Assembly (NCBI GenBank): GCA_947172415.1
Contig: OX359191.1
Coordinates: 5,332,001-5,396,000 of the forward strand
Length of the DNA stretch: 64,000 nt
Reading direction: 5' to 3'
Source: Chondrosia reniformis
Taxonomy: Eukaryota > Porifera > Demospongiae > Chondrillida > Chondrillidae
The position numbers and the translations under genes are program-made. The notes below the pieces were generated by a model that worked only from the letters and a program-made list of their open reading frames with translations, was not told where the DNA came from and searched no databases. Positions 19,228 through 45,397 of this stretch are shown here, in pieces; within the stretch, counting starts at the first letter, position 1; each line of letters begins with the position of its first letter.

Positions 19228-19795
19228 TATTAAAAATGGCTGCTAAGCCAAGCCGTACCAATAGATATGATTGGCAATAAGAAGCTGTTAGTTATATCCT
19301 TAGTTGGAACCATAGTTATCTTTCTATTAAGCCTTCTCCTTGAAGGACCTGGTAAGACTGTAGAAATGCTGTGCCTGTTGGATATGATCTCGCACGTGAT
19401 GATATTAGGACTCGAATGCTCTGTACACCTGCAGATGTATCCATGTTTAAAGAATGCCAGGTACTTCAGCAAGAGCATAGGAGCTTGGTGAGACGGAACC
19501 GAAAGTTGCACGAAGACATTCAGAGCCTGGAAGCCAAAGTAACCGAGATTAGGGAGCAAATGACTGTCAAGAGAGACCTGCAATACGAAGATCTTCCCAG
19601 TGTTAATCAAGTGGAATCCTGTGAGGTTGGTAGCCCGCATCTACTCTAAACTCTGCGTAGGGCTCCCTACTCTGTCAGTGATGTATTGATGTGCATACCT
19701 TTGTCACTTGTTTAACGTAGCTATAGACTATGGTTACCATACTTTCTTGCGCAAAGAGTTGAAACAGTAAAGATACATACAGCTATACCTACCTT
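19228..19795 (+). repeat. Right arm of large inverted repeat (LARGE 5' end)
   Basis: Partner of 15068-15605 in inverted orientation. It contains upstream sequence (around AAAAATGGCTGCTAAGCCAA) plus intact LARGE exons 1 and 2. Confidence 0.9.
19267..19625 (+). CDS. LARGE: LARGE exons 1-2: signal anchor and coiled coil
   Basis: The start ATG at 19267 opens [20 protein letters not shown], a basic start plus hydrophobic stretch typical of a type II Golgi anchor. The donor is CCTG/gtaaga at 19351/19352. The acceptor is cctgcag at 19434, chosen because it alone restores the coiled-coil frame ([20 protein letters not shown] onward). Exon 2 ends at GAG/gttggt, and NQVESCE joins to [12 protein letters not shown] of exon 3, aligning with the human KCETIHVAIVCAGYN stretch. 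A second open frame (19371-19649) reads through intron 1 from its own ATG and would give a soluble coiled-coil product if the intron were retained. Confidence 0.85.
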
Positions 19796-20039
19796 AAAAT
19801 ATATTTCTAAGGTAAACTATGTAGCTCAGTGGCGGATCTAGGATTTTAGAAAGGGTGGTTCCAAATTTCTGAATTTTGTGTCACACACACTTTCTGTTTA
19901 GATTACGTCCAAAAGAGGCTGATTTTCTCTATGGGTGTTATACGGAAATTATGTTGACCATTGTCATATGCAGTGGAATCCAGTTCATTTTTTTATAATA
20001 TAATAATAATAATAATAACACATACCGTATATATAATAG

Positions 20040-20071
<32 letters not shown>

Positions 20072-23000
20072 CACATACGTAGGTCAAGAACAGTTCATGA
20101 ACTTTAGTTAACAGATGGTATATGTCCTTCAGCCCTAGCTAGTTGAACAGAGTTGGAATCAAAAATAGCTCGATGATATGCTGTACGACTTCCTCTGATA
20201 CAAAGTACAGCTGCTCTAATCAAAGCAAAACAGCAGCTTGCATCTGATCCAACTCATCACATTAGAGTAATGGTCTTTATTCTTCTCAGCAATCAGTGTT
20301 GCCAAACGGCCATAGAATGCCCTACACTCTCCCCCATGCCACCTCTACTTGAAAATACAAATGGTGTGAACACTCCTCTTTCAATCTCCCTAACACGTTG
20401 ACCATAATGCCGTTTCTTTTCCATTTCATGCTTCCTATATACAGATATTAAGCTATTGGAACTCTTAGAAGATGCAATGGGGTTAAAAACCCTTACATCA
20501 AAAAATGCCACCTGTTTAGAGTTCCAAAAGCCATTAGCCAGATATCCAATCTAGTGTTGTGGTCTCTATTGGCTGACCTATGATCATGTACCTCATTGGT
20601 AACAGGTTGTAGGAGTGGTTCCTTACAAACACTGCTGCAAACCTCAGATCTCTAACCTCATAATGTCTCAATGTTAGAAAACCACCCATCTGGCAAGACA
20701 TGGCATGACTGACACTAAACTTACTTCCACAGATACAATCTGCAGGAGTATGCTGCAACTGCCATCCATATCTTAAAGCTAGAGCATCTTGGAAGGACCC
20801 TTGTGTAAACTGAATCCATGATGGGCTATTGGTAGAACTGATAGCCATGAAGATGATCCCTTTTCTTTTGCTAAATCAACAAGATACTGTTGGGAGTGGC
20901 TCAGAGTTTGGTAGTTATCTTTAGCCTTTACCTCCAGCCTTTGTGCTTTCCACATCAATATTTCAGCTTTGGCAGATCTCACTACTTCTTGTATTACACA
21001 TTCTGTTCCATCTTGGGTAACAATGATGTCTACAAGGGGCTTAGTTATAGCTGCTGAATTGGAATATAAATCCTTGGCATCGCTCACTGGGTTGTTAATA
21101 CCAAGTCCTCCAAGTCTGACTGGGAGTGACACAGTTCCCTTTCTTCCGATGAACATGGAGGACGACCTGTAATAGCTGGTATCAGATGTCTATGGATGGC
21201 TGTCTCTAATGGATGGAAAAGAGCTGAAATTCCCTGGATGGTTCTCATAATGAAAGACCATTTGTTTTTCATACCATGGTTGTAGGCATACAAGGCCTCC
21301 TGAGGATAGCTATCAGCTATATGGGCTAGAAACTCTATTTCTTCAACCCAATTCTGGACTTTCTTCAACACATAATCTTCTGTAAAGGCTCTAGCTCCAA
21401 TTGCAGCCCTCAGGTGGCGTTTACCTGCTGAAGTAATGATCATATTAGCCTCAGCAAAAATGCTTTTGGCTTGCTCCTCTAAACCATCCTTAACTACCAA
21501 ATAGGTTTTGGAAGCATTAGGATAATAACCAAAATCTGGACCACTGGATGATAAGACAGCCCACCACCTCTTCAAATTCCCAAAGCTACCAGCCCCTGTG
21601 GCGTCATCAGCAAACCAAACCTGTCTTGTACACCACACTTTTTACGAAGCTGTTGAATAAGTGGTGTGATTGCCAATGCATAGAAGGCCATCGACAAAGG
21701 ATCTCATTGTGTTGTTCCTGCGTAGGAAATGATTTCACCATTACCAGGAACTACCAAAGTACTTGGCTCCTAATAAGTGTTCCTAAGAATAGTTGCAAGT
21801 GGTGGACAAAGGACACTAACATTATGCAAAGCAGCTTGCCTATTAATAGTATTAAAAGCATTAGTAGCGTCAACCAGTAGAACTCCATCTATACTCCATC
21901 TTCTCTAAATATCATCTCCATAGCATGAAAGGCAGCTTCACAGCCAGACTCCTGTCCAACACAAACTTGAATTTGGTCGACTGTGTCTCTGATATCTGAA
22001 TACATCAGCCTAAGGACAGCTTTGGAGATAATTCTCCTAGGGATCTCTCCCATTCCAATTGGTCTAACACCTGGACATTTGTTTAATGGAACAAGGCAGC
22101 ATGAGACAAATGCACTGAAACCTATAGGATCAACCTCAGTACTGCAAATGCAGCGACTAACCGCCGCAAGGGCAGAGCAAAGGTCTTGCGAGCAAGATTT
22201 GAAGGAACAACACATTCTTCTCCAGATCGAGCCATCCAGACCAGAAGAACCACCCGAACCTTGTATCCGTAGTGCAGAACTACGAATTGCTTCAGAATCT
22301 AATCCCTCAAAGATGATCCAATTAGAAGAATGGTTAGGAACCTCAGCTGGATTGAGCAGAGTAGATGGGGCTGGAGGCTTGCTGAGAGGATGCTTTGATA
22401 TTAAAACATACTTCACTGATAACATAGCCCCACAGTCAGAATTTAATGATGGTACAAGATCATGAAACCCAAGCAAGCATTTGCTGGAGTTTCTAGATAA
22501 AAAATTGATGGCACTTTTTACTTTGCCCTGTAACATGAGACGACTGAAGACTCTGGCTGTGTGGTTAGAGTCTTTATTCACTGGATACCGTATGCGTTTC
22601 TGAATGCAACGACCCTCCTCAAGCAATTCAGAAAACTTGCCATCTTTCCATAACTGTAGTCTTCTCGTCAAGTGAGAAGCATGATGTTTGGCCTTGCTAC
22701 TCTTCGTAGGTTTCTGCAATACAAACATTTGACAAACAAAGCTGGCTTTCAGGACTATATATTCAAGTTCGGAGTTGTTTGCAAAGGCTTGGTATAACCT
22801 TGCAGTTTCACTTACAAGGTTCCTACCAGCTTGGCCTGATGGTATCATGAATAAATTTCGTTTTCAATGCATAATTTCATCATGAATTTTAGATATCTCC
22901 CTAAAAATTGACTGACCGTCTTTTTCTCCCCAGAAAAAGGTTTATGTCTGCTGACATTGTATTTTCACCTGCATTTGGGCCCTTCAGTTTCTGTTGCCAC

Positions 23001-26000
23001 AACTGTTGAATGATCCGTCATAACCGACACAAGATGATTAGAACTAACAATGCTAGGTACCGTTGAACTGGAATTGGAATTGGGATTATTCAATTCTTTT
23101 GGCTGACTGTTTTTCTTTCCACGTGATTTGGGCGCAGAGTCACGAACGCCATTTTGACATGACCCTAAATCTTGTGGCAGACAGGAATCACACCTCCTTC
23201 CAGCTTAAACGCCAGCACATCTGGAACAAGTTCCCTTGCGATTACATCTACAGCAAGTCATTTGAAATCAAGAGTTTGAAGATGGGTATAATCTTCTCAA
23301 ACTAGAATTACTTCGAGGAACTTATTGATACGGCCATTTTATTGTTGCCGTTTTCAATTCATCCAGTTCATTCCACTTATATATCCAGCATGTAGCTATA
23401 TACATAGAGTGTATACGTAACTTGGACATAAGCTTTATGTAACGCTGGATATTTGCTTTTAATACAATATATATTGCATCCTGCAGTTAGTTAGTGTGAC
23501 AGAAAATTTAACTTATATAATAATGCATGAAATGTTCATGTGCTGAGTGTATGTTTTATGTAGTACTGTTAAACATTTTTCAGTTTTTATCATCAGGCAA
23601 CATAAAGCAGAGTTTCATTCTCCTAGGATGTAGTTGAGCAAACAAGCGAACAAGTTCGTTCATTTTCTCTTCATTGGATAAAAGTTCATTGCATCTTTTA
23701 CGATTGATCTTCATCAATGCAAGGGAACTCAGTCTGGATTCTGACGTGGTGGCACGTCGGGCAGTCTTGACAAGTTTCAGTTGGCTAAAACTCTTCTCAC
23801 TCTCACATGACGTGATGGGAAGTGTAAGAGCCAAGATCAGTAAAGCATTCAGGTTTGGGTATGCCAGAACACTGCACTCCTTCAAAGCACCTATCAATGT
23901 GTCAGGAACAGTAGATGAACACCCCTTCCACTTCCGCACCCATGAGTCATACTCAGTGTTAAACATAGCAGCATGGGGCAGATCACCCTTGAATACATCA
24001 AGTGCTTTAATTGGACAGCTCCTCAGGAACCATTACATTATCTCCCATTCTGATACACTCGCTTGGAAGAAGATGGAGAAGGCCAATTGTAATACTCCGA
24101 GATGGATTATTTACAAATCTCTCTTCCAATTCACTCACAACAAAAGACAGAAATTCATCATAAAGAGTAATCCTGTAGTACTCTTCTGGATTGGATGAGG
24201 GTAGATTGCTACGATGTGTCTGCTGCCCAGAGAGCCTTGGGGTTATCAATTCAAATTGATCTCCGTGCAGCTTTTTACCAATTTTAGTTGCTTCTATAAA
24301 CTGCTTCCTGAATTCCAAAACAGAATTAGGAAAACAGCGTAAGAATCAATTCTGGGTTCGGCAGGCATCTTTCAACTTTTAGGCAATAGGTGTTGAGTCA
24401 CAAGCTTCGATGGAGGCATCCAGTAGCCTCTGCCTCTTTGCTGAATAGTTAAAAAACCTAGGAATCTCTCCTATAGTAGCTTCAACATTTCTAAAGGTTT
24501 GGATTCTACAGGCAGATATCACTGAGAGATTGAGGTGGTAAGCTGCACAGTGGTAGTACATTGCCTTGGGAGCTACTTTTTAAACTACTGCCTTCACACC
24601 AGATCTAGCACCACTCATGTTGGAAGCTCCATCATAACACTGACCGCGCATGTCAGCAACGGAAATGCCATGACCCTGGAGCCAACTAACAATGGCTTCC
24701 CCTAGCACCCTTCCAGTGATCCTCTCAACTTCAATAAAATCTACAAAGTCTTCTCTGATCTCTTCATTATGGATATAGCGGATAACAAGAGAGAGCTCTT
24801 CATGGTTGGCAACATCGGTAACTTCATCTGCAATGATGGAATAGTATTTTGCATTCTTCACCTCACTAATAATACTATTCCTAATGGTGTCACCAACTAC
24901 ACTCAGTAACTCATTCTGGATGTTTTTGGAAGTATAGCGGGCATTCTTTGGACCTTTGGAAAGATGTTCAGACAGAATGGTGTCAGTTTCGGCTCTAAAA
25001 CCAAGTAATTCAATAAAGATTAGATTCAAACTATCACTAGCCAATTGAAACAGATTTTTCATCCAACGTTTCGGTAGCAATTTCAGCTACCTTCATCAGG
25101 GATTAATGAAAAAGGATATAGCTACACAGTTCTTAAGTTGTAAGTTCATAAAATGATTGTGGTGAGTTGACAGTTAATGATATGATACCATTCAGTGAGT
25201 CCAAATTGAAAAAAATAAAATAAAAGGAAATAAAAGGAGGAAGTAAAATGATAGTATATATTGGTATATAACTAGTTGAGGAGGGCCTTGTATTCAAGAG
25301 GAAGAGTCCCCTTTTCTCTGTTCAAGGTATTAGGATGGTTCTGGATGTGCCAACTTTCAAGAAGGCATCGTGTGGTGACATATGGATTGGAGTCTATTAC
25401 TTCAGCTGAAGATAGATCAACATAATGGCCCGTGGACCATACATGTTCAGCCAAAGCAGATGCTGTCACATTACCATTTCTGATGGCACGTCGATGTTCG
25501 GGCAGTCTGTGGTTTAGGCTACGTCCTGACTGTCCAATGTATACCTTATTGCAGTCCGAACATGGGATTTGGTATACTATCCCTTTGTGCTGGTTAGATG
25601 GGATTGGATTCTTAGGATGAACCAGCCTCCTCCTCAAAGTGTATAGTGGAGAGAAGATGACTTTGATAATTAATGGTAGGAGGATTCTTCTAAGAGTCTC
25701 GGATAGTCCTGATATATATGGGACGGTAAGGCTGGTCTTCGGTCTTAACCTGCTGGCACTCTCTCTTCCTGATTCAACATTTGAGTATCTATGGATAAAT
25801 CCAGTAGGGTAACCATTCTTTTTCAGGGCTTCCACTACTCTTCTTTTCCTCAGCTGTTCTCCCACAGCAGGTAGATGACAACTTGTGGGCCCTGTTACTA
25901 ATTCAATGAAGTTGCCCTCATTAGACCCCTCAGCTGACAAATATATTCTGTGATCCCTGTGACCACGTAAAGCCAATCCCTGCTTACCGCACAGAATAAT

Positions 26001-29000
26001 GATTCGCAACAGGGACTCGATCACCTTCTGGTTGGCTTCAATTATCTGTCTAGTCTGACTATCTAAAACAGCATCCAGAGCTTGTGATGGTGACTCATAA
26101 TGCGCCAAAAACTCTGCCATCTTAGCCATTGCATTGCGATGATACTCCTTCTTCCTTTCTTCTTCTGTTGCTCTTTCTGTAGTCTTATTCCAAAACCGGA
26201 ATGGCTCCAAGACAAATTTACCTAGATCATTTCCACCGATGCGGTATGGTGAAAAAACAACACAAGCACGACAGTACACTCCATCAGAAAATTGACTGTA
26301 ATGCATCCATGAATACTGTTTCAGCCAATCTGGTTTGAACCTGTTCAAATTATTTGATGGACACGGGTGTGTATGTAGATAGCTGTGTGGATCAGGATTT
26401 GGCTCAGTGGTGAGGAGACGATATTTATCATCTCGAGAGAGACCAGTAATATCCACTCCAGAATTCCTGAGTTTGCCAATGTCACACTCTATTGGGATAC
26501 TCTCCCTTGCAATACTAGAACCTGAGCCTCCATGACTTACCGAAGTAGCCTCAACTACTTTCTCATTCTCAGAAACATCACCAGACTCTTTCTGTACATC
26601 AACCGCGGAGGTATTTCCGACATCACTAGATGTGACACTTTGAGAGGGCTGTACTTCAGAGTCACTTTGTGTATCATCATCTGAACAACCTACCTAGTTT
26701 TTGCTTTTCACATTTTATTCTTGTATTGTCAATTCATATAAGTAAAAAAACATGCTGGCATTAAGGTTAGTGGTGTGACTCATGTGTCACAAGCAGCTAC
26801 CAGCTTTCTTGATCATATGTCAAGTGTCACTTAAAAATCGAAATATCATAAACTAAGTGTTTTAAGCACGGAAACATGGTGGAGATAAGATACCGTTAAT
26901 ATTCTAACAATCAATATTTTATCTAAGACGTATTACAAGTATGTGATCAAAAGCTAGTAAATGTACCTACAGCTGGTTTGCTTCTTTTCTGGAAAATGAT
27001 GTTAGGTTAACGTTGCCTGTCGCTTGCCGCTTTCTATTGCTCATCCTACGCCACGACGTGCACGTTAAACAGCGGGAAAGATAGATAAATAATAATTTTA
27101 CGTCTACATTGTGTTATTGATTATGTAATGCTAAATGGCGGAGAATAATACATACAGCAGTAGAGGTGTGAGTTACTGCCGCATTTGAATAGGTCGTATA
27201 AACTGTCTTTGTAATATTATAGATTATTGAATTATTATTTCCGCTACAGTAATTCAGCCTGTACGTTCTTGCTCTTGTACTTACGAAAGCCAACTTACAG
27301 GCAAAAGGGGGGTTCCTTTGCACCCCTGGATCCCCCCTAGATCCGCCACTGTAGCTAATCTATTTGACAGTTGCAGTATTTTGATATAGTTACAGTATGC
27401 AACATCTAGAGAGGGTACTTCATTTTTAGAGAAAGTGAGCTCATAATATCGCAGAAACTCCATTTGCTGGAAAATTACAGTTAGTATCCAAAATATTCTG
27501 TAAGAGTAATTTAGAGGCATACTACGGTAATGATACAGTAATATAATATTATTATTATAAATAGTTATTCAGTATTTAATACCACCATTAATTGTGTTTC
27601 CTCATGCTAACATGATGCATATATCCCTGATATCTTAGGTGGTCCATGTGGTGATGGTGGTGGCTGGATTTGGGACCTGCAGAGATGTCTACCCAATGAT
27701 AAAGTCAATTTTGTTTTATAGAACTCACCCATTGCATTTCTACTTTCTTTCTGACAAGAATGCAGCTGTCATACTGCGGAACCTCTTTCATACTTGGGAC
27801 CTCCCAAGGGGTATGTACGTAAGTACATATAAAGCAAACTATTTCATCATAAATTTACCATTGAGCCAAGATGTAATCCCTTGTTCTCCTTGTAAATTAT
27901 AAGCTAACAGAGAAAATCATTACTAGTGACAGAACTGTTATCAAAGAGATAAAGTGATATGCCCACTTGTTAATTACAGGTTTATGGACAATCCCTTGTA
28001 TTTGGTCAATACTTCTGCTACCACAAGTTCTCATTAATGATTCATAATTGGCTACTTCGTACATACCTGAATATTTTCCAGACTGATATGTGATATCTGT
28101 CCATCTATCATCAATCTCAATACTATTGAAATTTACCAAAGTTGATTAAAAATTAATAGCCATTATTGGGGTTTGTTATAACCTTTTAAATCAACTAATT
28201 AAGTGAATGTTTTTTTCTGTATATTTTCTTTAGTTGACGTCAGTATTCTTGAAATAGAGATGTACAAAGTGAGTGAGTTGAATGATCAATGTACAGTATA
28301 TAAATTCACAATGCTCTTTTAAACTTTACTTACATAAATATCCCTTTAATTTAATATTCGGCGCAATTTCACAATGACATCATCTTTTCACACCTCTCAT
28401 CCAACTTCTATATAAACACCAACCATTCCTCATTTATCATGTTTGCTGATGAAGACCTACGGGTTGAAACGTCTTATAATCAATAATTTATGTTGCTGTC
28501 GCTCAATAATACCTCTGGATTAAATCATGATCGCAACAAACAGCACTTATCACTTCAAAAATTTCTGTGTATAATTGGGGCGAGCCTTAGCGATCCCCAC
28601 ACTAGGCAGTTGAACAGCGATTTTGTCTATATAAATATATATATATATATATATATGTGCCGTACGGCTTACCATTTACCAAAACCGAAATGGTCGCCGC
28701 TCGTGAACAGATTGAATATTCGGCGCGAAAAGCTTCAAACGGTTGGTTAAGCGCACGAAATAAAGAGTACTTGCCAACCTTACCCATACACAACGTTTTC
28801 TGGAGCGCCATCGCGAAGATCAGCCCCTATTCTCGCTTCAGCCTTAATGCTCTCTCCCACCCCAGCTTGACATCCACAGCATCCTGCTGAGCTTGCTCCC
28901 CCTATCTATCTGCATCTCGCACTCCTCTCCTCTTTTCATGAGCCTTCTCACTCCTTACATTCCACAGCATGCATGGACCTTTCCCTATTCTCCACCCTCT

Positions 29001-32000
29001 ATATACATGCATCCCCACTCCACCCTATGCATGTCTTCTGGTAACACTCATCTCGCATCCTTCCCAGCTCCTTCACACTCACCCACACACATGCACATGG
29101 CGCTCATGTCTTGTAGCCTCTCCAGCTCCTTCACAGCTCAATCCTGGGCTACCTCACGCTTCTGCTGCCTACCACCTTTAATTTATATACTTGCTCAGGC
29201 TCGCCCCCACAATACAATGCATCTGCCTAGTATATAAATAGATTGGTACTCTATGGTTTACTGTACAGTATGTACCATTGTCTAGCAGCTAACCGATAGG
29301 TGTATCTTAAATATATGAACAAATGTAGCAATAGCTTTTAATTTGGAAAACTAGATACAGTGGACCCTCGCTAATCCGAATAGCATTGTACACAAGGTTA
29401 CAGGAATGTGTTCAGATTAGTGAATTTGTTTGGATTAGTTAACGTTTCACAAAATGTGCTATAGATGATGTTACAAGTACAAAATTAATATAGTCTTAAT
29501 TATCAACGCTCTTCAATTATTTAACTCATTCCATTAACTGTAGTTATTGCATTTCAATTCTTACTTATGTATTTTATGTTCACTGCATTCCTATATAATG
29601 TATTATTATTGAAAATATAGTACATACATAAGGACAACAAAGTACATACGTAACTAAGCTAAGCTGAGAAATAATCAGTTAAACACTTCTGGGTAATGCT
29701 GCTCAGTCGCTTCTTTGCTGCAAGCTCATGTAGGTCATGTAGCACAGATAGGTTATAAGCATTCACTTCATCCTACTCCTGCAGCCAAGCTATGCAGTTG
29801 TCAAACATTTTTGAAAGCATTTCCATGAGTGACGGAAGGAGTTGAAGAAGAACTGGAGGAAGAAGAGGAGTCCACTCCCTGCATGGCTACTGTCTCTGTC
29901 TCATCATCAGAAGAGACAGCATCAGATGTGGGCGTTGGGATGTGCAGAGCAGTTATCAAGCAGGAGCACAGCTTTGGGTTCAAGATGCATCTCTCTCAGT
30001 TTCTCTTAAACCCAAGGGACAAAGTGATGATGGAACCAGTCTGTAAACAGAGCTGTATTAACCCAAGCATTTGACTGGGAGGCATACGCCACAGGCAGGT
30101 GATCACGGCTAACATGCTTGAAGCATCGTGGATTCTTTGATTTCCCAATCAACAGCAGAGGGAGCTTTATTTTGCCAGTCGCATTTGAACACGCATTGAT
30201 GGTGACGTGTTCCTTCTGTGTTTTGCGCCCATCAACAGACTTCTCAAAGTGGGCAGCCAAGTCAGTTTGAGGGAGGTCTTTGTAGTATAAGCCAGTCTCG
30301 TCACAGTTAAAAACTTGGTCAAGACTGTAGCCACCATCTTTGATGAAGGCTTGGAAATCGGGGATGAATTGATCAGCAGCTGGCTTGTCTGCTGACAGTT
30401 TTCCCCCCTGCAAAGTCTGATAGTGTGACGTTTGCAAAATCTCCACATCCAGCCAGAAGAAGTGGTGAACTCTTGGTCGTCTCTGTTGCTTTGTGCCTCT
30501 CAATCGCTTGTGCAACTCACGAGCCTTTGCCTGCAAAATCGGCCTGGTGATAGGGATTCCCTCTCTTGCTTCTACTTAAACTATAAAAACACCGCCATTT
30601 CTAGTTCTTCATCCTTCCCCAGCTTCATCACCTTTGCAGTACGCTTCACTCCCATCTCAGTCATTTTCTGCCTGTACTCCCACAGTGAAGACTCGCATTT
30701 CTTGATGTCCATGATGGTAGACTGTCCTATTCCATACTCCTTGCCGAGCACAGTATAGGATTTGTTTCCAATCTGGTCGACAGCTTATGATCAACAGTTA
30801 GGATCTTGTGCGCTCTCTTGGCCTTCGTTTAAGATGCTATCTCACGTACTTTAATAACCTAGAATCGGCTGTCAGGCGCTGGCGGTGATGTCACACGGCA
30901 AGCATGCATTTAATTGATTAGTTATTCGTCATTCGGATTTCCTAGGGTTCGGATTAACACGATTCGGTTTGGCGAGGGTCCACTGTACATCTAAATGTAC
31001 ATGATTTGTGCAATTTTATTTGCACTAGTCACGCACTGTATATATTGTATTGTTTTGATAAATGTAGAGTGATACTCTCAGCTTTATACTTGATATTACT
31101 ATTTGTACTCCCATTTGGTACACCTTTGCAGCCCTTAGTGGAGTGGGTTCCAAATATTCACTATTCTGGAGTGTTTGGCCTAATGAAGCTAGTACTGCCT
31201 GAGATTTTACCACTTGATGTGGAACAAGTGAGTTGTTTACATTTTATTCTACAACTGTAAACCTATGAAGCCAGTTAGGTGTTTGTAGACATTTTTAAAT
31301 ACATAAAAATTGGAAAATGTTTTTTCTTATCTATATACACATTATGGTTTGTACAAATTATTGAAAGATGTACCATATCAAAGAGAAAGCTAGACAGTGC
31401 AGTTTGAAAAAGTCCTTATTCTATAAACTGTTAATGTACCATGCATGCCTAGAATTATTGCTGTGTTATACAGTTGGGACTAGTAAATGCATGTAGACCA
31501 ACTGCAGTATAGGAATATGGGATTTGTGTATGTACAGTATTTTATTTATATCATTTATTGTACAAATAATTGAATTCTGTAAATCATAATGTCTGTGTAT
31601 GTATTGATGGCATATCTAGGTCATAGTGCTGGACACTGATCTGACATTTGCAGCTGATATTACAGAACTTTGGACATTCTTCAGTGAAATGAAAGAGAAA
31701 GGAAAGGTGTGATGAATTAGAGAACCTAAGTATTTGTGTTACTAAATGGTTTTCTGGTAGACATTGAAATTAGATGGATTTTGAGGCCTCCAAATGTTTC
31801 TAGGGCAGTGTGATTTATGTGCGGATTTGCAGCCTGGAGTTTAAGTAGTCATCCATACAGTTTTTATTAATAAGTGATTACTAATTTAGCAATTGCCATC
31901 TGGATAGTATACATGAATATTCTAACCCACCAATTTTCAGCATACTACATTTACTTTAGAGTTAAAGGCCTATAGGAACTAAACCTAGTGAGAGCTTTGG

Positions 32001-35000: not shown

Positions 35001-38000
35001 TGCAATCAATAATGACACGGGCATTGGGATACTTTTTGAAGACTTCCAGTGTCGTTGATTTAATCTGTTCCTTTGTTGACCATGGGAATATATTTCTCAT
35101 CTCAGCTGCTAATGTCTTGATTCAGAGTGAAAAGAATCTCGAAAATGTGGCAGGAGAGACCTCGAACATTGTAAAAATGTCCTCAACTAGCAATCCCAGA
35201 CACAATTGTATTAAAATACTGCTAAAAATTCCTCTTTGCAAGTTAATTTTCCTGTCCTTCCAGACATAGATACTTCAAGGTCTGATGTTTTACATGCCCT
35301 TTCTATTACAGGCTGCAGGTAATCAAAAAGACTGCAGAAAAAGGCATAGGATGGAAGGCCTGTAAGAAACCTGCTTTTTTGTTGTTATGAACAATAAATG
35401 TCATCATTTTCTGCTTTTGTGATAAGGTGAACCGTGTACCTTCTAATGATAACAGTTTACTTTGAAGTTGTTGAATAGTTACTTTCAACTGTACCTGCTC
35501 AAAAGAGGTCGAAGATAGGTTAATTAGAATTTTAGCTGCCGTTTCAACTTTGTCTTGGTCTTGTTTCCTTCTTGTCTGCCTCACTAAACGCTTTCCTCTT
35601 TTATCGTCAATTTTTGGCACAATTATTTGTCTTTTACGATCCTTAAAGATTGTTGGCACAAAATTGACATCTTCGGGGTTCTTAGATAGTCTTCCTTGAA
35701 CAAAATGTTCACTGCAAATGCTATCGAATTTCTTCGAAATCCATTTTTCACGGGATATAGCTCGGCACCAGTGAACTGTGAGAGATATCGGTTACAGAGA
35801 AGAGAACTCAATTCAATCCAATACAATAGTAATCACACTACACGTTTATCACGTAAATTAAATATATGTCTTAGAAGGTTCTAGAATAGATCATTGAATA
35901 ATAGCAATTAGGGATTACACATAATAAAGATAAGGTCACCATGTTACAATCCTATCCCGGAGTTCTTACTAAATCTGTTCATGCAATTTACAGCACAACA
36001 ACTGACAGGGAAATTGTGACGTAATTATGAAAAAGTCTATACTAATACTTAATATTTAGGATGAATTGAAATGTTTGCATGTGTCACCTTCTAGGGTAGA
36101 GGTTTTAATACTGGTGTAATGCTGCAAGATCTAAAGGAAATGAGAAACATGAAATGGAATGAAATTTGGAAAAAAGTGGCACAGGAGACCCTACCAGAGT
36201 TTGGTTCTACTTCATTGGCTGACCAGGTACGGTGTACTGTATATGTAGGATTGAAAACTTACTAAGGCTACCATGTTTTAGCTGTTAGCTATTGTATAAT
36301 GTATTCCTAACACTTTCATAACACTGAAAAGCAATGGTTAGGTGTCACCAAACCATACCAACGTAAATGAATGACTACAGTTAAATATTTTGATATCAAA
36401 GAGGTTTTCCTTATCAGAGGCACCTACTAAAGGGAAATTCGCCTATGTAGGCTATAGTAACATAATGGAGTGTCATTAACAGTAGATGAGTAGTGGATGA
36501 TTGGGTGGTGAGTATAATCTGGGGGGTGGTCTAACCAGAAATTAGTGGTTTCTATAGAGGTCAATATTTGCCGTTGTCTTTACTATCAATATTAACTGAA
36601 CCTTTACATGATCTCTTGTATATTTGTATGATACTCAGTGTACTGTTTACTGATTATTAATTAGTAGCTATCAATTCAAGTAAACTAGATAGAGTGAAGG
36701 TGCAAGTTTACTGTAAATACAAATGAAAACAAATATTTGTACAAGTGCTGTATAAATGTTTTAGACCTTTATTTTAGCTGCATATATTAATCAACTTGGG
36801 CAGAATGTGGAATAGTTGGAAGTACAGGACACTTTGAATACCCTTATATATCTTGTTTAGATTTGAATAAACATGGTAATATGTATTTATAGGAAATATT
36901 ATATTAAATAGACAATTGCACACTACATATGGCTTGGATATGTACATATCCATGTGGATTTTCTGTAGGATGTTGTTAATGCTGTTTTAAAGAAGTATGA
37001 TCCGGAACTTCACCTGCTGCTACCTTGTGTGTGGAATATACAACTGGGAGATCATTCACTCAGTGAGGTGAATCAGTTAATAGCCTGTGTGTACGTATGT
37101 AGGCAAATAGGGAGCAAAACCATTTATATGGAAATGTATATGTGTAATACTTAAAAGTGTACATGTGTTATTTAAATTAAGAAATTAATGGTATATGTAT
37201 TGTTTCAACGTTAAGCCTTGATAAGTCCATGATTTTAATTCCATGTATGTGGCCTGTTAACTCTGTTTGTATTACAATAACAAGCTCTCCTCATGTCAAA
37301 TTGTTAATGGTACCTCATTTTCGCTTTACGTGTTTAGGGCTGCTATGAGGATAGTGCTGACTTAAAGGTGAGATTACAGTATGTTTGACTGTAGTAGAAA
37401 TTATTGAAGCCTTTGCTATAATATGAGACTGTCTTTATGCTGCTGATACGTACGTATGGATACTATTCATCTTTTGGAGATCCATACATTCTTACTTACT
37501 GCCTACCTGTACATTCACAATTAAAATTCTCAAAATGAGGTATTTTTTATTTTCATTTCAGATTTAGTCAAGTTTGTTGTATTAAAGTATGTTATTCCAT
37601 GTTCTGAATATGCCATTGCTAGGTGCTACATTGGAACTCTCCTTTAAAACTACAAGTGCTACATAAGCATGCTCACATATTTAAGAATCAGTATCTTACA
37701 TTTCAAGAATACAATGGAGAACTGCTAAGGCTAGTGCACTTGAACTTTTTATATGAAGCTTCTTGATTGGCTTAATATTTGATGTTTGCATTACGTTATC
37801 CTGTTACTACTGTATATGTACATAGATATACATGTATGGGAAATAATAAACATAAATTAGCCAGCATCCCTAAAATCATTACAATTTCTACTCTCTTTTA
37901 TTTAATGCCGATATTTTAGGAAACTAGTTACACTGTAGAGTAGGTCTGTATGCTATTAAAGTTCTATAGCTATTAATTGTCATTTGAGAGCTGCCAATAC

Positions 38001-41000
38001 TTCTCAATAATAACTATGTCTTTGGCAACCCATCCAATTGGCTATTCAACCACATTAGTCTGTGTTACGACAAATTGCATGCTAAAGTTAGTACATATGT
38101 ATCTTTCAAATCCTACACCTGTCAAAATGCTAAATAATGTACCGACTATAGTTTCAAACACTAAATTATGCTTTATTTCTACTTTAGCATTACATTGTAA
38201 AACTGTTACATAGTTAAAATAGAGTAGAATTGCATAATTTGAAATCTGAGTAATCCCTTTTTGTTTTATTTTAAAATAGTTTGATATCACCTACTGTTTC
38301 ATTATCTTCAAGGGTTATTTATACGTACACATAGTGTTAATCACATATTTTTAATGTCAAGTAGAAGTCTTAGTGTGTGTACATACTATTGTAGCATAGG
38401 TTTTTTAGCGAAATGAGTAGCTTCACATACGTACCTGTTAATGTACATACATGAAAAATCTAAGATGCCATTTTCCTACATGCTATGCCTATTCTGTAAA
38501 AAGAGCCTATAGGGGAACTAAACCTGAACAGAGCTTTGGATGAAGATACAGGAGTCTTTTCTTCCTTCTTTTCCCTTCTTTCATCTTCTTCTCCACTGGG
38601 TCAGACAGCCGTTTCTGGGAATTCCACCCTTCATCAATGATCCTGGGAGTCTTTGTCTTTTTATTTATCTTGATCTTCTATGAATCCTTGGCTCTCTGCT
38701 AAATCTAGGGGCCTTATATACACTATTTTGGAGTCAAAAGTTAAACAAGGTGTTAACTAAGACACATAATGAAATTTAACTTTATGAAAGGAATGTAAGT
38801 CAAATTAAATTTAATTAATTAAATCTATTAGTAATCTTGCTTGTACAGGTAAAACAGACTCAGCCTAAATATAGACACAAGTAGGACATATTACATTAGT
38901 CTACCCTTAGGTCTTATAGTAGTAACATATCTTTGGAGGTGGGGTAACACAATATGGGGTAACACAAGACAGTCCTTAAGCATACTAGCTACTTTTGCTT
39001 ATACCTGATTCTAACTAGAGGATGCCAGGATAGGAAGGTTTGAAGGTTGATTTTAGCTTAAAGTATTTGTAACCCTGCTTAATAAGCCTACTGCATAACT
39101 GCAAACTTTTAGCCTGAAAACTGGAGAAGTCACTACATATTCTGGAATACCTAATTAGTTGTGAAATAAAGACACTATAGGCTGGGGTATTAAGAATATT
39201 ACTATCTAAATGGGGGAAATTTACTATTTCAAAGTTAAAGTCCTTTTGCTTATCATATACTTTAGTGATAAATTGATTACTAGTAATGGTTATATCTAAG
39301 GGGGATTTCCTAGGGCTGGTTTTTGTCTTTTTAAAAATAAGTTCTTTAGGGTAAATATCACTAATTGACAGTTCGAAATCCTTGTTGTTAATACATAAAA
39401 GGTCATCAATAAGCCTATAAGTATTGGAAAATTTAATAGCTAGGGTGATGTTATCCTTAAGTAGTGTCATAAACTCATACTCATAGGCAAACAGAAAAAG
39501 ATTAGCAACTACAGGGGCACAGTCAGTACCCATAGGGATACCTATACATTGCTTAAATACAGAACCATCTACACATACAAAAATGTTGTCAATAAGGTAA
39601 TTAAAGAGCTCTACTAAATGAACAGCTATGACTGCTTTATTGGAGACATTGTTAGACCAAAAGGCTTTATCCTGACAGACTTCTATATATTGGGACTTTC
39701 TACAGGTATAGGCACTATGAATAAGGTTAGTAATCTTGTCTTTAAGTAGGTTATGGGGGATCGCTGTATATAAGGTAGAAAAATCAAAACTAGCTAGCTG
39801 GGCTTTTCTGGTGGGTATAGACCTAAGACTATCTAAGACTTCTAGTGAGTTTTCTACTATCCAAAAGGCATGCATAAGTTAATAGACTATTCACAAGGTT
39901 TTATTGTGTTTATATCCCTTATTATATCGGGTCACTAGATATGGGAACCCCATTTGTCCAAATTTGTCTTTGGACCATCTGAATATTTGGTCCTAAAGGG
40001 TTTATTTCACTTATTGCATGAATGAGATCTAGGAATTATAGATCTTAAATTCTTATATATATACATATATTCAGAAAAGATTTAGTAAAGTGCCCATCCT
40101 GCCCCGAGTGTCGCAATAAGGCTCATGATGAGACACTTGTAGATGACTGTATTCTTATGAAACAGTTTGCCAAGGAGGAGTACAGAACACATTTGTATTT
40201 TGTGGATTTCAACTACCAGGTTAGACTTTAATTAGCTTAACTATTGGAAGTAAATAATTTAAGTTGTGACTATTAATTGTAACGTATTTATTATGTTTAT
40301 ATCGTCTGGAGCCTACATTCAAAGACCCCCAGAAATTGTTGATAGTACTGGTTGGATAATAGTTGAGTATGCAACACTCAGTCGTATCTTGACTGTACTC
40401 CACTTGCTGATTTAAAACCACTAGTGTTTACTTCATCAAATTTAGACAATAAGTCATCCAATCAACAAGTATTTATTTTTGACATTACAAAATAGTTTAA
40501 CATCCAGCACTTAAGATGCTCTTCTACTGAAGTAGACATTGCATTGTTTTGCTGTGTTCTTCTAATATATATGCATCTGAAGTAACACTTAGTTATATCT
40601 CAGTAGCTGTTTCTCTACCTGATCAAAATTAAACTCACTCCCTGCTAAGTGACTTGGTACAGCATTACCATTTGCACCCCAAGAATTTGTTTACATGTAG
40701 TGGATTTCTTTTATCATTTTTGACTTCTGACACTATATAATACCTTCACAGATATAGCTACATAATATAATACCTTCACGGATATAGCTACATAGCTAAC
40801 CTGTCTTTATCAGTCCTCTAGTAGCAGTGATATCACCTTAGTCAGTCAACTGTCATTTGATCGATTACACTTGTTGGAATCACTGGCCAAGCACTGGCAT
40901 GGTAATGCAATACATTAACACCAAGCTTAGAAAACAGGAAGACATCACAGCTCCTGAGGTGTTATGTTACAATGTGTATATGTGGACATCTTTGCTCTTA

Positions 41001-44000
41001 CTTGCAGGTCCAATGAGTTTAACTGTCTATCTTTCAGATGCTGAAACTGTAAAACTTTTAGAACTTGTCCAGACATCACCTGTTTTGTCAACTAGGATGA
41101 ACTTGGGCTTACATGTAGTCTACAAGAAAGGGGTATGTTCAACTAAACAAAAACGAATGTCCAAGTGTGCACAAATTTATCTATGCAATTTGTGAGGTAC
41201 TGTTACAGTAGCTTCATAAAGTCTAAGTAACAAATTGTCCTTGAATTGCATGTCAAATAGTTCTTAGGTTTATGTCTATTTTTTCTTCATTCCATGCTCA
41301 TCTTTTCTGTAGCCATTTTATCCAGTTAATTATCTCCGTAATGTTGCCTTATCACACACTGTTACTCCGTTTGTGTTCCTGTCAGATGTCGATTTCCTTC
41401 CCAACTATAACAGCTACAAGATAATTATGTAGGTTTATTTTGAATGTTTCCCTATTTAACAGAAGCGACATTGTTTTATATTTACAAATATATCAAATAA
41501 AGGAGTGCATAAGTTGCACAATGGTTATTTACATCATATTTTATTTTGGTTGTGGGACCAAAAAAAGTCTACTTGAAATGACAATTTGATCACCTCTCAG
41601 TCATCCAAGATAACCAGCATCATAGAATAGCCGCAGGCAGCTGTTGTGCTCTTCTAATTAAAGGCTCATCAGTGGGATACACGTTGGTGATGATTGTGAT
41701 AAGACTGCTATCAATGTATTTACCCATTACAAATGAAACATTTATGGTTCTATAATTAGAGGAATCTGAGGAGGTTGAAACTGCAGTTCATATTACACAT
41801 GCATTTGTATGTGTGGTATATAATGCTACTTATTACTATTGACTACTTAGGACTTCTATAGCTTCCACTGTTTCTGAAGGTGGCCTCAAGGTTTGTGTGC
41901 ATACTTTAACTTGGGTTGAAGTTTTGTACATATATAACAGTGTACTATTTACCCACGTTATTAGGCTCTTGTAGTTCCCGCCTTTGAGACACTTCAGTAC
42001 AAGTTTGCATTTCCAACAAGTAAAAAGGATCTACTAAAGAGAGTGAAAGAGAGGAAGGTGATACCATTTAGGTCACAAGAATGGCCCAGAGGTCATAAAC
42101 CAACTGATTATGAAACATGGTTCACAAGTAATGCTACTTACAAGGTGAAAGACCTTATATGCTGCAAATTCAATATTGTAATCACATTACATTAGAGTTT
42201 GATACTGATAGCAGCATAGTCAGTAGTTTAATCCTGATCCAATCATTAACTCAGGCTATATCATCATTTGTCACTGCTGAACAACACCATGTTCATATAA
42301 CATACCTATACTAATGACTTCTACGGCCTCTGAATTAACTTTTCATCCATTTAAGCACTACTACTGATAAGGACAACTGTTCACAAACGACAAGAGAGCA
42401 TGTTTAAACGTTTTTGTGATGACAATTTCTATGTATGTATGTATTACGTGCTATTTGAATATAAACCAGGTCATGTAATGCAGTACGATAGGTATGTGTA
42501 CATAAGTTATGTTTCTATGTGACTTGGATATAAACACTGACATATGCACTGCCAAGGATTCACAGAAGATCAAGATAAAGAAAAAGACAAAGACTCCCAG
42601 GATCATTGATGAAGGGTTGAATTCCCAGAAACGGCTGTCTGACCCAGTGGAGAAGAAGATGAAAGAAAGGGAAAAGAAGGAAGAAAAGACTCCTGTATCT
42701 TCATCTAAAGCTCTCTTTAGGTTTAGTTCCCCTATAGGCCCTTTTTACTGAATAGGCATATAGCATGTAGGAAAATGGTATATTAGATTTTTCATATGTA
42801 CGTACCATGCACTTACCCTTATATAGCCATTAGTAAGATATGCTTGCCACAGGTTGACTGGTCCCCAGACTTTGAACCCTATGTGGTGGTGAGGAACAGT
42901 GTCCACTTGTATGACACAAGGTTCTTGGGATTTGGTTGGAATAAAGTGTCTCATATCATGACCATGGATGCATATCAGTAAGTTGTGGCCTCCCAGCTCA
43001 TAGTGAACTGGATGGTTCTAAAACAGGTCATCTCGTATACGTATCACAACATTATACATGTACGTATATGGCATATATTGCTGCTAGTGTCTGTTGACTA
43101 GTTGCCAACATTCCCGCCATGTTGGTTTTATATGTGAGTGCTAGTTAAACAGCTGAAATTAGGGAAAATATTTTTCAGGCTGTGGATTGCCTGTAATTTA
43201 CTGTGCATATCTAAAAGAACAGTCTGATCTATTTGTATTTCTCCTTAGCTCCGCATGCATGTCTAACTTATATCTTGTTTTAAATTCTTCCTTAACACAT
43301 CATGCAAAATGTAAAAATGTACGTATTAGTAGAGTAAATCTGTACAATACAATGGATTGTCCAACCGTTGATCTGTCTCTTGTTAAAGTGAATGTCTCCT
43401 TTTCTCTGCAGATACAAATTTATAGTCTTGCCAGATGTGTTTATGATTCACCTTCCACATGCTCCCTCAACTGATATTTTAAAGTATAGAGCCAGAGAAG
43501 TTTACAGAAAGTAATTGCCTATATGTAAATAAGCTATATTCAGTGGCACATGTTGTATATAGCGGGTACTTGACAGTTATTGGAAATCTCAGTCTACTAA
43601 AATGTTATTCTAAAATGTATTATAATAGCATATTGCTTAGGAGATGTATGGAAATTGCAAATTGGGGACACAATTTAAAGTCACAGACAGATATTAAATA
43701 TACTAAATATACATGAAAAATCTAAGATACCATTTTCCTACATGCTATATGCCTATTCTGTAAAAAGAGCCTATAGGGGAACTAAACCTGAACAGACCTT
43801 TGGATGAAGATACAGGAGTCTTTTCTTCCTTCTTTTCCTTTCTTTTTTTCTTTTTCTTTCATCTTCTTCTCCACTGGGTCAGACAGCCGTTTCTGGGAAT
43901 TCCACCCTTCATCAGTGATCCTGGGAGTCTTTGTCTTTTTTTTATCTTGATCTTCTGTGAATCCTTGGAATGCATTTTTAATGTAAAAAGAAGCATTAAA

Positions 44001-45397
44001 TTTCTTTATGTCTAACTGTATTACGTATATTACCCAAGTCAAATAAGCCGTTTATTCAAAACAGTTAGTTAAAAGCATTTAACCCTTGACCACAGGTCAA
44101 CATTTTGAAATCCTTGCAAAATGTGTCACATTGTGATTGAAAAGTATCTGGCAATTATAACAAATACCGTATACCTGGAAAGTTTGACAGGGGACTTATT
44201 TTGATGGATTAGCAGTTTTGATAACAATTTGCCAGTATTTTAGCCACCAACAGTATGATATCATCATTGGTATATGCCACTATTCATACATACAGGAAGG
44301 AAATTATTAACCATTTTAACACCTACATTGGACTCACCTAGTCTCGCCATCGTGGCGTTGAAGTAAGGGTTGCAGCCCCAGCTTATGGGCTTAGTAATTC
44401 GTAGTAAAAATTGTCATAAAACTCAAGTTTACCACTGTGCTATAAGGCCTTTTCGGAGAATACCACTCCTCATAAGTAGCACTGGGTAGCAATTCTTTAG
44501 AGTAACCTAGCTACTAATTCTTTATCTCTCGACAAAGGATTGGCTGAAACGCATTTAAAAACGTCAAACCTTAAACTCAGAAAACTCTATAACCAACATC
44601 AATATTATTATGTACGCAAAATAGTATGAACAAGGAAATTATTAACCGAGTCCAATGTAGGTGTTAAAATGGTTAATAATTTCCTCTTTTCCTCTGAAAA
44701 GACGTTTTTAAATGTTTCAGCCAATCCTTTGTAGAGAGATAAAGAATTGGTAGCTTGGTTACTCTAAAGAATTGCTACCCAGTGCTACTGATGAGGAGTG
44801 GTATTCTCCGAAAAGGCCTTATAGCACAGTGGTAAACTTGAGCTTTATGACGATTTTTACTACGAATATACTAATTATGTTTTAACGGCATGGAGTTGGC
44901 TATTGGCAGCTCTATACGAGGACCTGGTCCTCATGTCTGCAAAGAGTTTTGGACACCGACTGTAGGAGAACAACTACCTTGTCAGCTTGAGGAAGGCAAT
45001 CTGCATTATCTGTATGTAGTTGCTGTGAAGACTGACATTTTTGGTACTGCCCAGCTGCATGCCAAATAAAATGTGCCAAACATCATAATTTAAGCAATTA
45101 GTTAAATATTCTTCCCACCACATTTTCTGGCCATACAGTATGTGCATGGACAAAGGCTCTTAATGCACATTACACTTACTAGGCAAGCAGTTTATGAATC
45201 TTAATTGCCATACTTTTAGCTATATAGGTGCAGGCTTATTCTTAATTTCTTCACTTTTTATAACACTATATGAAATGCAGCAAATCCTCCATTGTTATCT
45301 TGGTGTATATTTTTATTTTTGTAGGTGTATGAATGAATTGAAAAGGGAGTTCATCAACCAGCTGTCAGATAGTTTCAACACCAATAAATACCTTTGA
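19267..45397 (+). CDS. LARGE: LARGE-type xylosyl/glucuronyltransferase, 20 exons
   Basis: Exons: 19267-19351, 19435-19625, 27639-27810, 28234-28268, 31132-31227, 31620-31706, 32468-32545, 36095-36226, 36969-37067, 37337-37366, 37623-37729, 40075-40219, 40814-40901, 41008-41132, 41313-41428, 41851-41890, 41965-42144, 42853-42977, 43412-43510, 45325-45397. All junctions keep phase, giving 700 residues (human LARGE1 is about 756). Order: signal anchor (about 7-26), coiled coil (about 30-75), GT8-like domain (about 93-370, DTD at 198-200), link, GT49-like domain (about 420-690, DVD at 515-517). In known animals LARGE alternately adds xylose and glucuronate to O-mannosyl glycans of alpha-dystroglycan in the Golgi. 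Collinearity with human LARGE1 runs from the anchor to KYL at the end. Intron 11 has a GC donor; the others are GT-AG. No frameshift was found. LARGE1 and LARGE2 cannot be told apart here. Confidence 0.93.
20001..20067 (+). repeat. (ATA)n microsatellite
   Basis: Two adjacent tracts of ATA/AAT units separated by a short unique stretch, near the 3' end of the antisense RT element, where such tails are common. Confidence 0.9.
20293..23200 (-). pseudogene. Reverse transcriptase element with CCHC and restriction-like tail
   Basis: Minus-strand blocks from 23200 down: N-terminal helical part (21889-22848, [20 protein letters not shown]), [69 protein letters not shown] (frameshifted near 21890), the catalytic [12 protein letters not shown] (21600-21625), then [11 protein letters not shown] and [10 protein letters not shown]. 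After the RT come [15 protein letters not shown] (C-x-C-x7-H-x4-C), RHYEVRD and [10 protein letters not shown] (20480-20511), and a basic tail with [15 protein letters not shown]. This layout of RT, CCHC and RHxxxxD/DVxV resembles R2/CRE-type elements with restriction-like endonucleases. There are at least four frameshifts or stops, so it is inactive. The same family recurs at 53430-54390. Confidence 0.75.
25019..25898 (-). mobile_element. 5'-truncated Penelope-like fragment with GIY-YIG endonuclease
   Basis: Inserted in the hAT transposase and flanked by near-identical 13-bp direct repeats, TAATTCAATAAAG (25006-25018) and TAATTCAATGAAG (25899-25911). The minus-strand frame reads [45 protein letters not shown] and [17 protein letters not shown]. 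This is the GIY-YIG endonuclease of Penelope-like elements (here IVY..YIG). The RT half is absent. By chance it fuses in frame to the N-terminal hAT part, making one 394-codon frame (25272-26456). A hammerhead-like motif lies at its 3' end (25061-25102). Confidence 0.9.
25061..25102 (-). ncRNA. Hammerhead ribozyme-like motif of Penelope element
   Basis: On the minus strand CTGATGA is followed by AGGTAGC, a short loop, GCTACC, then GAAAC and GTTGGAT. This matches the conserved hammerhead core CUGAUGA, a fully paired stem II and GAAA. Penelope-like elements are known to carry such motifs in their terminal repeats. Cleavage activity was not tested, and the partner strand of stems I and III was not fully traced. 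Confidence 0.65.
26701..27300. other. 5' non-coding part of the hAT element
   Basis: AT-rich sequence between the transposase start and the terminal inverted repeat at 27310-27351. No gene was seen. Confidence 0.5.
27639..37729 (+). CDS. LARGE: LARGE exons 3-11: GT8-like xylosyltransferase domain
   Basis: Nine exons with short coding lengths (30-172 nt). Motifs in order: [47 protein letters not shown] with the metal-binding DTD (exon at 31620), [35 protein letters not shown] across an intron, [12 protein letters not shown] and [10 protein letters not shown]. Exon 4 is only 35 nt ([12 protein letters not shown]) and was found by phase and by alignment to the human segment between the two flanking motifs. 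The introns here hold Tigger, Penelope and ISL2EU-like insertions. Confidence 0.92.
28380..28510 (+). mobile_element. Penelope-type terminal remnant with hammerhead-like core
   Basis: GCTGATGAAGACCTACGGGT followed by TGAAACGTC (28444-28472) gives the CTGATGA...GAAAC core with GACC/GGTT as stem II. The remnant lies in LARGE intron 4, and no coding part of the element remains. Confidence 0.55.
28576..29212. repeat. Repeat with GGGGCGAGCC inverted ends
   Basis: The left end ttGGGGCGAGCC and right end GGCTCGCCCcc form short inverted termini enclosing a (TA)n tract and a CT/CA-rich low-complexity body. A shorter relative sits at 51653-51853. It is probably a non-autonomous DNA element, but no target duplication was proven. 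Confidence 0.5.
29358..30985. mobile_element. Tigger/pogo element in LARGE intron 4
   Basis: Terminal inverted repeats CAGTGGACCCTCGCTAATCC (29358) and the reverse complement of GGCGAGGGTCCACTG (ending 30985), flanked by TA on both sides as expected for Tc1/mariner-type insertion. The length is 1628 bp. It encodes a broken pogo-type transposase on the minus strand. Confidence 0.93.
29801..30800 (-). pseudogene. Tigger/pogo-type transposase (broken)
   Basis: The main frame 30006-30536 has [14 protein letters not shown] with the first catalytic Asp, the block [20 protein letters not shown] and [18 protein letters not shown]. Beyond a stop the next block reads [14 protein letters not shown] (about 29945-29985), giving the second catalytic Asp. 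The HTH DNA-binding part upstream of 30536 is split by stops. CENP-B-like homology comes from family knowledge. The antisense orientation to LARGE avoids strong splice and stop effects on the host transcript. Confidence 0.87.
31951..32150 (-). repeat. Dispersed lysine-rich coding-like repeat, copy 1
   Basis: The minus strand reads [20 protein letters not shown] and, after a gap, [11 protein letters not shown]. It is the most divergent of four related copies, all within LARGE introns (others at 38498-38720, 42548-42805, 43712-43970). Confidence 0.7.
33010..34189 (+). pseudogene. SWIM/YqaJ-type nuclease of the ISL2EU-like element
   Basis: The frame around 33110-33205 reads [20 protein letters not shown] and SHVATLLF, a complete SWIM zinc finger (CxC...CxH). 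The 33148-33753 frame continues through an acidic/helical linker to [16 protein letters not shown]. After a frameshift come [16 protein letters not shown], then (33962-34189) [12 protein letters not shown] and [16 protein letters not shown] and the EIK triad supply the YqaJ active-site acids and Lys. At least two frameshifts separate the blocks. Better preserved than the copy at 4559-6188. Confidence 0.82.
34559..35826 (-). pseudogene. DDE_4-type transposase of the ISL2EU-like element
   Basis: Minus-strand pieces: 35623-35826 and 35306-35659 (basic, coiled-coil linker with [11 protein letters not shown] and [14 protein letters not shown]), an interrupted stretch, then 34559-35005. The last piece has [40 protein letters not shown] (catalytic Asp pair region), [14 protein letters not shown] and [20 protein letters not shown]. 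These match the core at 3616-3996, so both elements belong to one family. The middle catalytic part (35005-35300) is broken by stops. Confidence 0.83.
38498..38720 (-). repeat. Lysine-rich coding-like repeat, copy 2
   Basis: GCCTATAGGGGAACTAAACC on the plus strand begins the unit. The minus strand reads toward SSSKA...FRFSS with one frame change. Together with upstream ATGAAAAATCTAAGATGCCA it nearly matches copy 4. Confidence 0.8.
39015..39875 (-). pseudogene. Penelope-like reverse transcriptase fragment
   Basis: A continuous 286-codon minus-strand frame. It has [20 protein letters not shown] (RT motif A), [20 protein letters not shown] (motif B region), the catalytic [13 protein letters not shown] (motif C, IDD in place of the usual YxDD form), then [32 protein letters not shown] and [10 protein letters not shown]. 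This is the RT/thumb region of a widespread Penelope-related group. The N-terminus and any endonuclease are missing. It lies antisense within LARGE intron 11. Confidence 0.8.
40075..45397 (+). CDS. LARGE: LARGE exons 12-20: GT49-like glucuronyltransferase domain
   Basis: Exon 12 (40075-40219) is the link between domains, with CPSCPEC and [14 protein letters not shown]. Then come [46 protein letters not shown] (the second DxD), [66 protein letters not shown] and the final CMNELKREF...NTNKYL before TGA at 45395-45397. An AATAAA hexamer overlaps the last codons. The 43412-43510 exon is followed by a 1.8 kb intron containing a foldback element. Confidence 0.92.
40738..40800 (+). repeat. Tandem duplication of about 31 bp before LARGE exon 13
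   Basis: ATAATACCTTCACAGATATA and ATAATACCTTCACGGATATA each continue with GCTACATA. Two adjacent units, ending about 13 bases before the exon acceptor at 40813. Confidence 0.85.
42548..42805 (+). repeat. Lysine-rich coding-like repeat, copy 3 (inverted)
   Basis: In LARGE intron 17. The plus strand encodes [20 protein letters not shown], then [16 protein letters not shown] and [17 protein letters not shown] with no stop until TGA near 42750. Opposite orientation to the other three copies. Confidence 0.82.
43712..43970 (-). repeat. Lysine-rich coding-like repeat, copy 4
   Basis: In LARGE intron 19. The minus strand reads [20 protein letters not shown], then a lengthened Lys/Glu run (pyrimidine tract TTTCTTTTTCTTTC on plus) and a frameshift before the SSSKA end. 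Confidence 0.82.
44297..44866. repeat. Foldback element in the last LARGE intron
   Basis: The arms 44398-44565 and 44701-44866 are inverted copies (for example CGTAGTAAAAATTGTCATAA against TTATGACGATTTTTACTACG). A second pair lies at 44297-44335 and 44648-44685 (GGTTAATAATTTCC type). The nested arrangement gives a stem of about 165 bp. No coding sequence. Confidence 0.88.

Follow-up and report, generated by a model that had tools for sequence, protein, structure and literature searches.

In vertebrates, LARGE builds the sugar chain that joins cells to the surrounding matrix. Demosponges are animals without muscle, and the locus described here raises the question of whether short coding pieces scattered over transposon-rich sponge DNA make up a complete gene of this kind. 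The DNA analysed (the window) is a stretch of 64,000 nucleotides (assembly GCA_947172415.1, contig OX359191.1, positions 5,332,001 to 5,396,000) from the demosponge Chondrosia reniformis, which agrees with the early-branching animal that a preliminary description had supposed as the source. The locus is a real, ordinary LARGE gene; judged by its predicted product, it is almost certainly the LARGE gene of this sponge, putatively coding for the bifunctional xylosyl-/glucuronyltransferase, and the only whole copy found in the genome.

The gene model runs on the plus strand from 19267 to 45397 and consists of 20 exons with 2,103 coding bases, out of 26,131 in the span, which encode 700 residues and end in a TGA stop. 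The exon borders were set by eye on the raw sequence from 18800 to 46500 and joined by a script; made separately, this model reproduces the start, end, exon count and product length of the preliminary description, in which 20 exons had been joined in phase to 700 codons. In a separate spliced alignment (dynamic programming with a flat penalty), the human LARGE1 residues taken from the phmmer match given below were aligned to the DNA; exons returned there exactly as in the model are marked as identical in the following list.

19267 to 19351, plus strand: LARGE exon 1, start codon and putative signal-anchor transmembrane segment (assembled model, hydropathy)
19435 to 19625, plus strand: exon 2, coiled-coil-like stem; 3' end also in the spliced alignment
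27639 to 27810, plus strand: exon 3, GT8 xylosyltransferase domain begins; 3' border less certain, start also in the spliced alignment
28234 to 28268, plus strand: exon 4, coding for about 12 residues; borders less certain, a related stretch occurs in broken copy B (see below)
31132 to 31227, plus strand: exon 5, 5' border less certain; 3' end also in the spliced alignment
31620 to 31706, plus strand: exon 6, first DXD (D198-T-D200); identical
32468 to 32545, plus strand: exon 7; identical
36095 to 36226, plus strand: exon 8, GT8 catalytic Gln (Q292); identical
36969 to 37067, plus strand: exon 9; identical
37338 to 37367, plus strand: exon 10, 10 codons; identical
37623 to 37729, plus strand: exon 11, metal-binding His (H338), then GC donor; identical
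40075 to 40219, plus strand: exon 12, inter-domain linker; identical
40814 to 40901, plus strand: exon 13, GT49 domain begins; identical
41008 to 41132, plus strand: exon 14; identical
41313 to 41428, plus strand: exon 15, second DXD (D515-V-D517); 3' border less certain, start also in the spliced alignment
41851 to 41890, plus strand: exon 16, least certain exon, not recovered by the spliced alignment
41965 to 42144, plus strand: exon 17; identical
42853 to 42977, plus strand: exon 18; identical
43412 to 43510, plus strand: exon 19, GT49 metal-binding His (H660); identical
45325 to 45397, plus strand: exon 20, holds the stop codon; start also in the spliced alignment

The reading frame is kept at every junction and all 20 exons are open, no frame-breaking boundary having been found across the 19 junctions. 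The 19 introns range from 74 to 8,013 bases; 18 are of the GT-AG type and one, intron 11, is GC-AG (AAG, then GCTAGT, at its donor). Exact agreement between the model and the spliced alignment extends to 12 of the 20 exons (6 to 14 and 17 to 19), the GC-AG intron included; three further exons agree at their 5' border (3, 15 and 20) and two at their 3' border (2 and 5). Other borders were picked by the alignment at two places, one running from the 3' border of exon 3 through exon 4 to the 5' border of exon 5, the other taking in exon 16 and the 3' border of exon 15. With splice-site matrices trained on the agreed exons (11 donors, 12 acceptors), the sites of the model outscore the rival sites at both places; the exon 15 donor and the exon 16 acceptor reach -0.2 bits each, no higher than the mean for GT or AG dinucleotides in the window, and the 14 residues there are therefore the least certain part of the model. 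Between a stop at 19231 and the start at 19267 there is no in-frame upstream ATG; a short upstream open frame at 19236 to 19280 (plus strand), read by eye, has its ATG (AAAATGG) 31 bases 5' of the LARGE start codon, in a different frame.

Split genes are usual in animals. That no frame exceeds about 125 codons, as had been stated, is true of the exon-bearing stop-to-stop frames, the longest of which has 117 codons (exon 14), but untrue of the span as a whole, where longer open frames lie on both strands, mostly in introns (394 aa at 25272 to 26456, minus strand; 201 aa at 33148 to 33753, plus strand), three of those on the minus strand carrying transposon-type domains over the cut-off. A 286-codon open frame without Pfam match is also present at 39015 to 39875 (minus strand), inside intron 11 (37730 to 40074). 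The related suggestion that the gene is hidden and would be missed by annotation is overstated and applies to prokaryote-style frame calling only; this assembly, as far as the account in PMC12181767 goes, was annotated by Ensembl with 17,340 protein-coding genes, mainly transcript-based, and by BRAKER3 in a second set.

An alignment of the product to LARGE1 had been proposed as a check on the claim of a complete LARGE gene, and its outcome is clear. A phmmer search of solved structures with the 700-residue product returned human LARGE1 (7ui6, 729 bits, E 4.5e-218; 7zvj, 725 bits), and besides these only XXYLT1, with 40 bits, was matched at E <=0.001. Chance is excluded, because LARGE1 is matched with 729 bits and because the spliced-alignment score is 1476, whereas three shuffled proteins scored 157, 179 and 176 and the reverse strand 183. 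Two Pfam domains, both over the cut-off, follow each other in one chain, Glyco_transf_8 (PF01501, 57.4 bits) at residues 168 to 344 and then Glyco_transf_49 (PF13896, 164.3 bits) in two stretches (best 489 to 658), in keeping with the identity and apparent completeness first proposed. The collinearity with vertebrate LARGE that had been described as full holds from residue 88 of the product, where the match begins (chain residue 140); exon 1 and most of exon 2 lie outside it. Identity to human LARGE1 amounts to 314 of 605 aligned residues (157/282 in the GT8 part, 17/52 in the linker and 140/271 in the GT49 part, with analyst-set borders between the parts). From the near full-length similarity, together with the single GT49 locus of the genome, we infer orthology to LARGE.

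All eight active-site positions checked (D242, D244, D334, Q335, H380, D563, D565 and H708 in the human enzyme) hold the same residue in the sponge, and the roles of seven of them, all but D334, are named in the account of PMC9746966. The sponge equivalents at LARGE1 positions are D198/D200, Q292, H338, D515/D517 and H660, among which both of the DxD centres noticed earlier are found at their proper place. Human residue 704 is the same in the sponge, and Met 706 is replaced by Leu; at the three human disease positions checked, S331 and W495 are the same, and C443 is aligned to a Met in the poorly aligned linker, with a Cys three residues ahead of that Met. The type II membrane anchor and coiled-coil stem expected of LARGE are both suggested by simple scores rather than a dedicated predictor, with a hydropathy peak of 2.98 over 19 residues from residue 7 and a heptad a/d hydrophobicity of the stem that was equalled by 27 of 5000 shuffles; lying outside the matched part of LARGE1, anchor and stem rest on frame, hydropathy and heptad pattern.

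The transposon-rich setting reported for the gene is evident from its introns:

19827 to 27351, no strand assigned: 7,525-bp insertion forming most of intron 2 (8,013 bases), bounded by perfect 16-bp terminal inverted repeats and flanked by TAGCT at either end
30006 to 30536, minus strand: DDE_1 transposase fragment (Pfam) in intron 4
34559 to 35005, minus strand: DDE_Tnp_4 transposase fragment (Pfam) in intron 7

The first of these has hAT-type domains inside it, namely a hAT dimerisation domain and DUF4371, along with a GIY-YIG match just below the cut-off, and transposon insertion has enlarged some of the LARGE introns. Outside the gene, DDE_Tnp_4 and GIY-YIG fragments lie at 3616 to 3996 (plus strand) and 48954 to 49772 (minus strand) of the window, and an Rfam scan of the whole window gave 0 matches at the gathering score.

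The gene is presumably transcribed, and its product would be a type II Golgi membrane protein in which a short anchor at the N-terminus is followed by a coiled-coil-like stem and then by the GT8 and GT49 domains. Its two metal-dependent sites may add xylose and then glucuronic acid, alternately, which would yield a matriglycan-type polymer on a mucin-like acceptor, for example the dystroglycan-like protein of the same genome:

C10 (L036 390 to 4301), plus strand: open frame of 1,303 codons, dystroglycan-like, which has Ser-rich repeats and a transmembrane segment, with PPPY near its end

The features that mark a dystroglycan are a Ser/Thr-rich stretch, an IG2-like domain, a transmembrane segment and a PPxY tail. 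The 393-residue C-terminal part of this frame has a collinear match to the beta-dystroglycan chain 8yt8_O over 267 residues (E 1e-4) and matches two alpha-dystroglycan chains at E 0.007 to 0.009. Pfam DAG1 reaches 19.7 bits at this locus, below the cut-off, is unlisted in the domain scan of its product, and gave no match in the genome search at E 0.001. The one DAG1 match that passes the cut-off at E 10 (on C13; 22.8 bits, 23.5 with its neighbours) is a transmembrane stretch that TMEM154 fits slightly better.

LARGE may act on another acceptor here than in vertebrates, since the genome yielded neither a further GT49 match nor one to LicD or IspD. Profile searches of the genome went exon by exon and covered GT49, LicD, IspD, FKTN_N, PMT, GNT-I, GT61, Laminin_N and DAG1. 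All three GT49 candidates fall within LARGE, no second GT49 gene having been found in the genome, and the same exon-by-exon search gave no genomic match to LicD (which we take to be FKTN/FKRP; matched in 2 of 14 controls), IspD (presumably CRPPA; 13 of 14 controls) or FKTN_N (matched in no control); searching in this way, such pathway genes may have been overlooked. Detected by the same kind of search were the PMT family (5 matches at two loci, C13 and C14; assumed to be POMT1/2), GNT-I (7 matches on C11 and one more below the cut-off on C6; POMGNT1 or MGAT1, as we suppose), GT61 (six matches, C10 and C12; presumably POMGNT2 or EOGT) and Laminin_N (seven matches), a domain that occurs in netrins too. 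This pattern, together with the sponge O. carmela being reported in PMC4582122 as lacking B4GAT1, speaks for a LARGE-family enzyme with a non-vertebrate product or acceptor, for example another Xyl-GlcA polymer or another primer than that of phospho-ribitol matriglycan. Such an enzyme is nevertheless rather unlikely, given that exon-by-exon searches may miss diverged, intron-split genes, that FKTN_N failed on the controls, and that B4GAT1 is placed in all lineages analysed by PMC8478517 and in all animal phyla except ctenophores by the listing in PMC4582122, to the extent that these accounts cover it. More doubtful still is a LARGE polymer made without the vertebrate primer, with LARGE, PMT, Laminin_N and the dystroglycan-like protein present and the IspD, LicD and B4GAT1 steps absent; if true, LARGE would extend a simpler or other acceptor, perhaps the ancestral state.

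That the locus is a recently dead copy of LARGE, with the working gene elsewhere, is highly improbable. It would be in line with the broken partial copies that exist on the same chromosome. When the 700-residue protein was searched against the genome of the sponge, 19 matches were returned, 17 of them exons of this gene (the short exons 4, 10 and 16 missing) and the remaining two partial copies, A and B, which are additions to the preliminary description:

15072 to 15593, minus strand: broken copy A, an inverted partial duplicate from the LARGE 5' end to the start of intron 2
C3:5196362 to 5197083 (L045 4363 to 5084), minus strand: broken copy B, about 135 kb upstream of the window, comprising LARGE exons 3 and 4 and, between them, intron 3

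Against it stand the 700 codons of the locus, free of any stop, frameshift or lost catalytic residue, and the same 19 matches, which beyond the exons of this gene hold broken copies only. Copy A is 94% identical over 469 aligned bases, and its shortened exon 1 contains a stop; copy B, which is older, is 78% identical to LARGE with its frame broken, and 269 bases adjoining it match LARGE intron 8 at 80%. Protein-level selection was not clearly evident when LARGE was compared with copy B, the divergence being 25/202 in exons vs 81/503 in noncoding sequence (p 0.24), 18/168 in exon 3 alone vs 69/384 in intron 3 (p 0.03), and 8/66, 7/68 and 10/68 by codon position, without clear third-position bias. 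With copy A, exon 2 differs at 4/191 positions vs 26/249 in introns (p 0.0004); the identical block continues into intron 2 and the four exon 2 changes alter three residues, so that conversion or chance fits equally well as selection. A plus-strand transcript across copy A would run antisense to the first two LARGE exons, and between copy A and LARGE there is a 526-codon open frame without confident Pfam match (16610 to 18190, plus strand). Contamination by another organism, for which no favouring point was found, has a negligible probability, the window lying inside a 9.4-Mb contig that carries further partial LARGE duplicates elsewhere, and it was rejected on this ground, as the dead copy was on the intact 700 codons and the own-genome matches.

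The preferred reading, a LARGE gene of the sponge itself, describes an expected gene, because LARGE1 has already been reported widely across animals. As described in 2015 (PMC4582122), LARGE1 occurs in Capsaspora, in choanoflagellates and in every animal phylum other than ctenophores, and in the account of PMC8478517 all enzymes of the pathway but LARGE2 are older than dystroglycan, LARGE1 is among the best conserved, and 4 of 13 were lost in Porifera. The bearing on the origin of matriglycan synthesis first claimed for the locus is narrowed accordingly, gene-level timing having been addressed in these accounts. What the locus adds is one more species for a known family, a demosponge whose LARGE looks catalytically intact, and, should the absence of the primer enzymes be real, a test case for the substrate that LARGE extended before dystroglycan became the fixed target of the full vertebrate pathway. 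A search for LARGE relatives with six short peptide patterns in viral contigs (1 pattern match) and in bacterial and archaeal genomes (23) gave none that passed tblastn; with patterns so few and short, it reaches close relatives only.

Compared with human LARGE1 (7ui6, 7zvj), the sponge product has the same GT8-then-GT49 order, DXD motifs, GT8 catalytic Gln and metal-binding His residues, whereas its N-terminal stem is shorter, its linker is gapped and its length is 700 residues vs 756 (the LARGE1 length as given in PMC8478517). XXYLT1 (PDB 4wlg) is likewise a GT8 xylosyltransferase, matched weakly at residues 170 to 319 (E 1.2e-09), but only part of the GT8 half is covered and its 306-residue chain is without a matched GT49 half. 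The non-vertebrate LARGE genes in the accounts of PMC4582122 and PMC8478517, those of sponges included, belong to the same family, the likeness being one of description, not of sequence.
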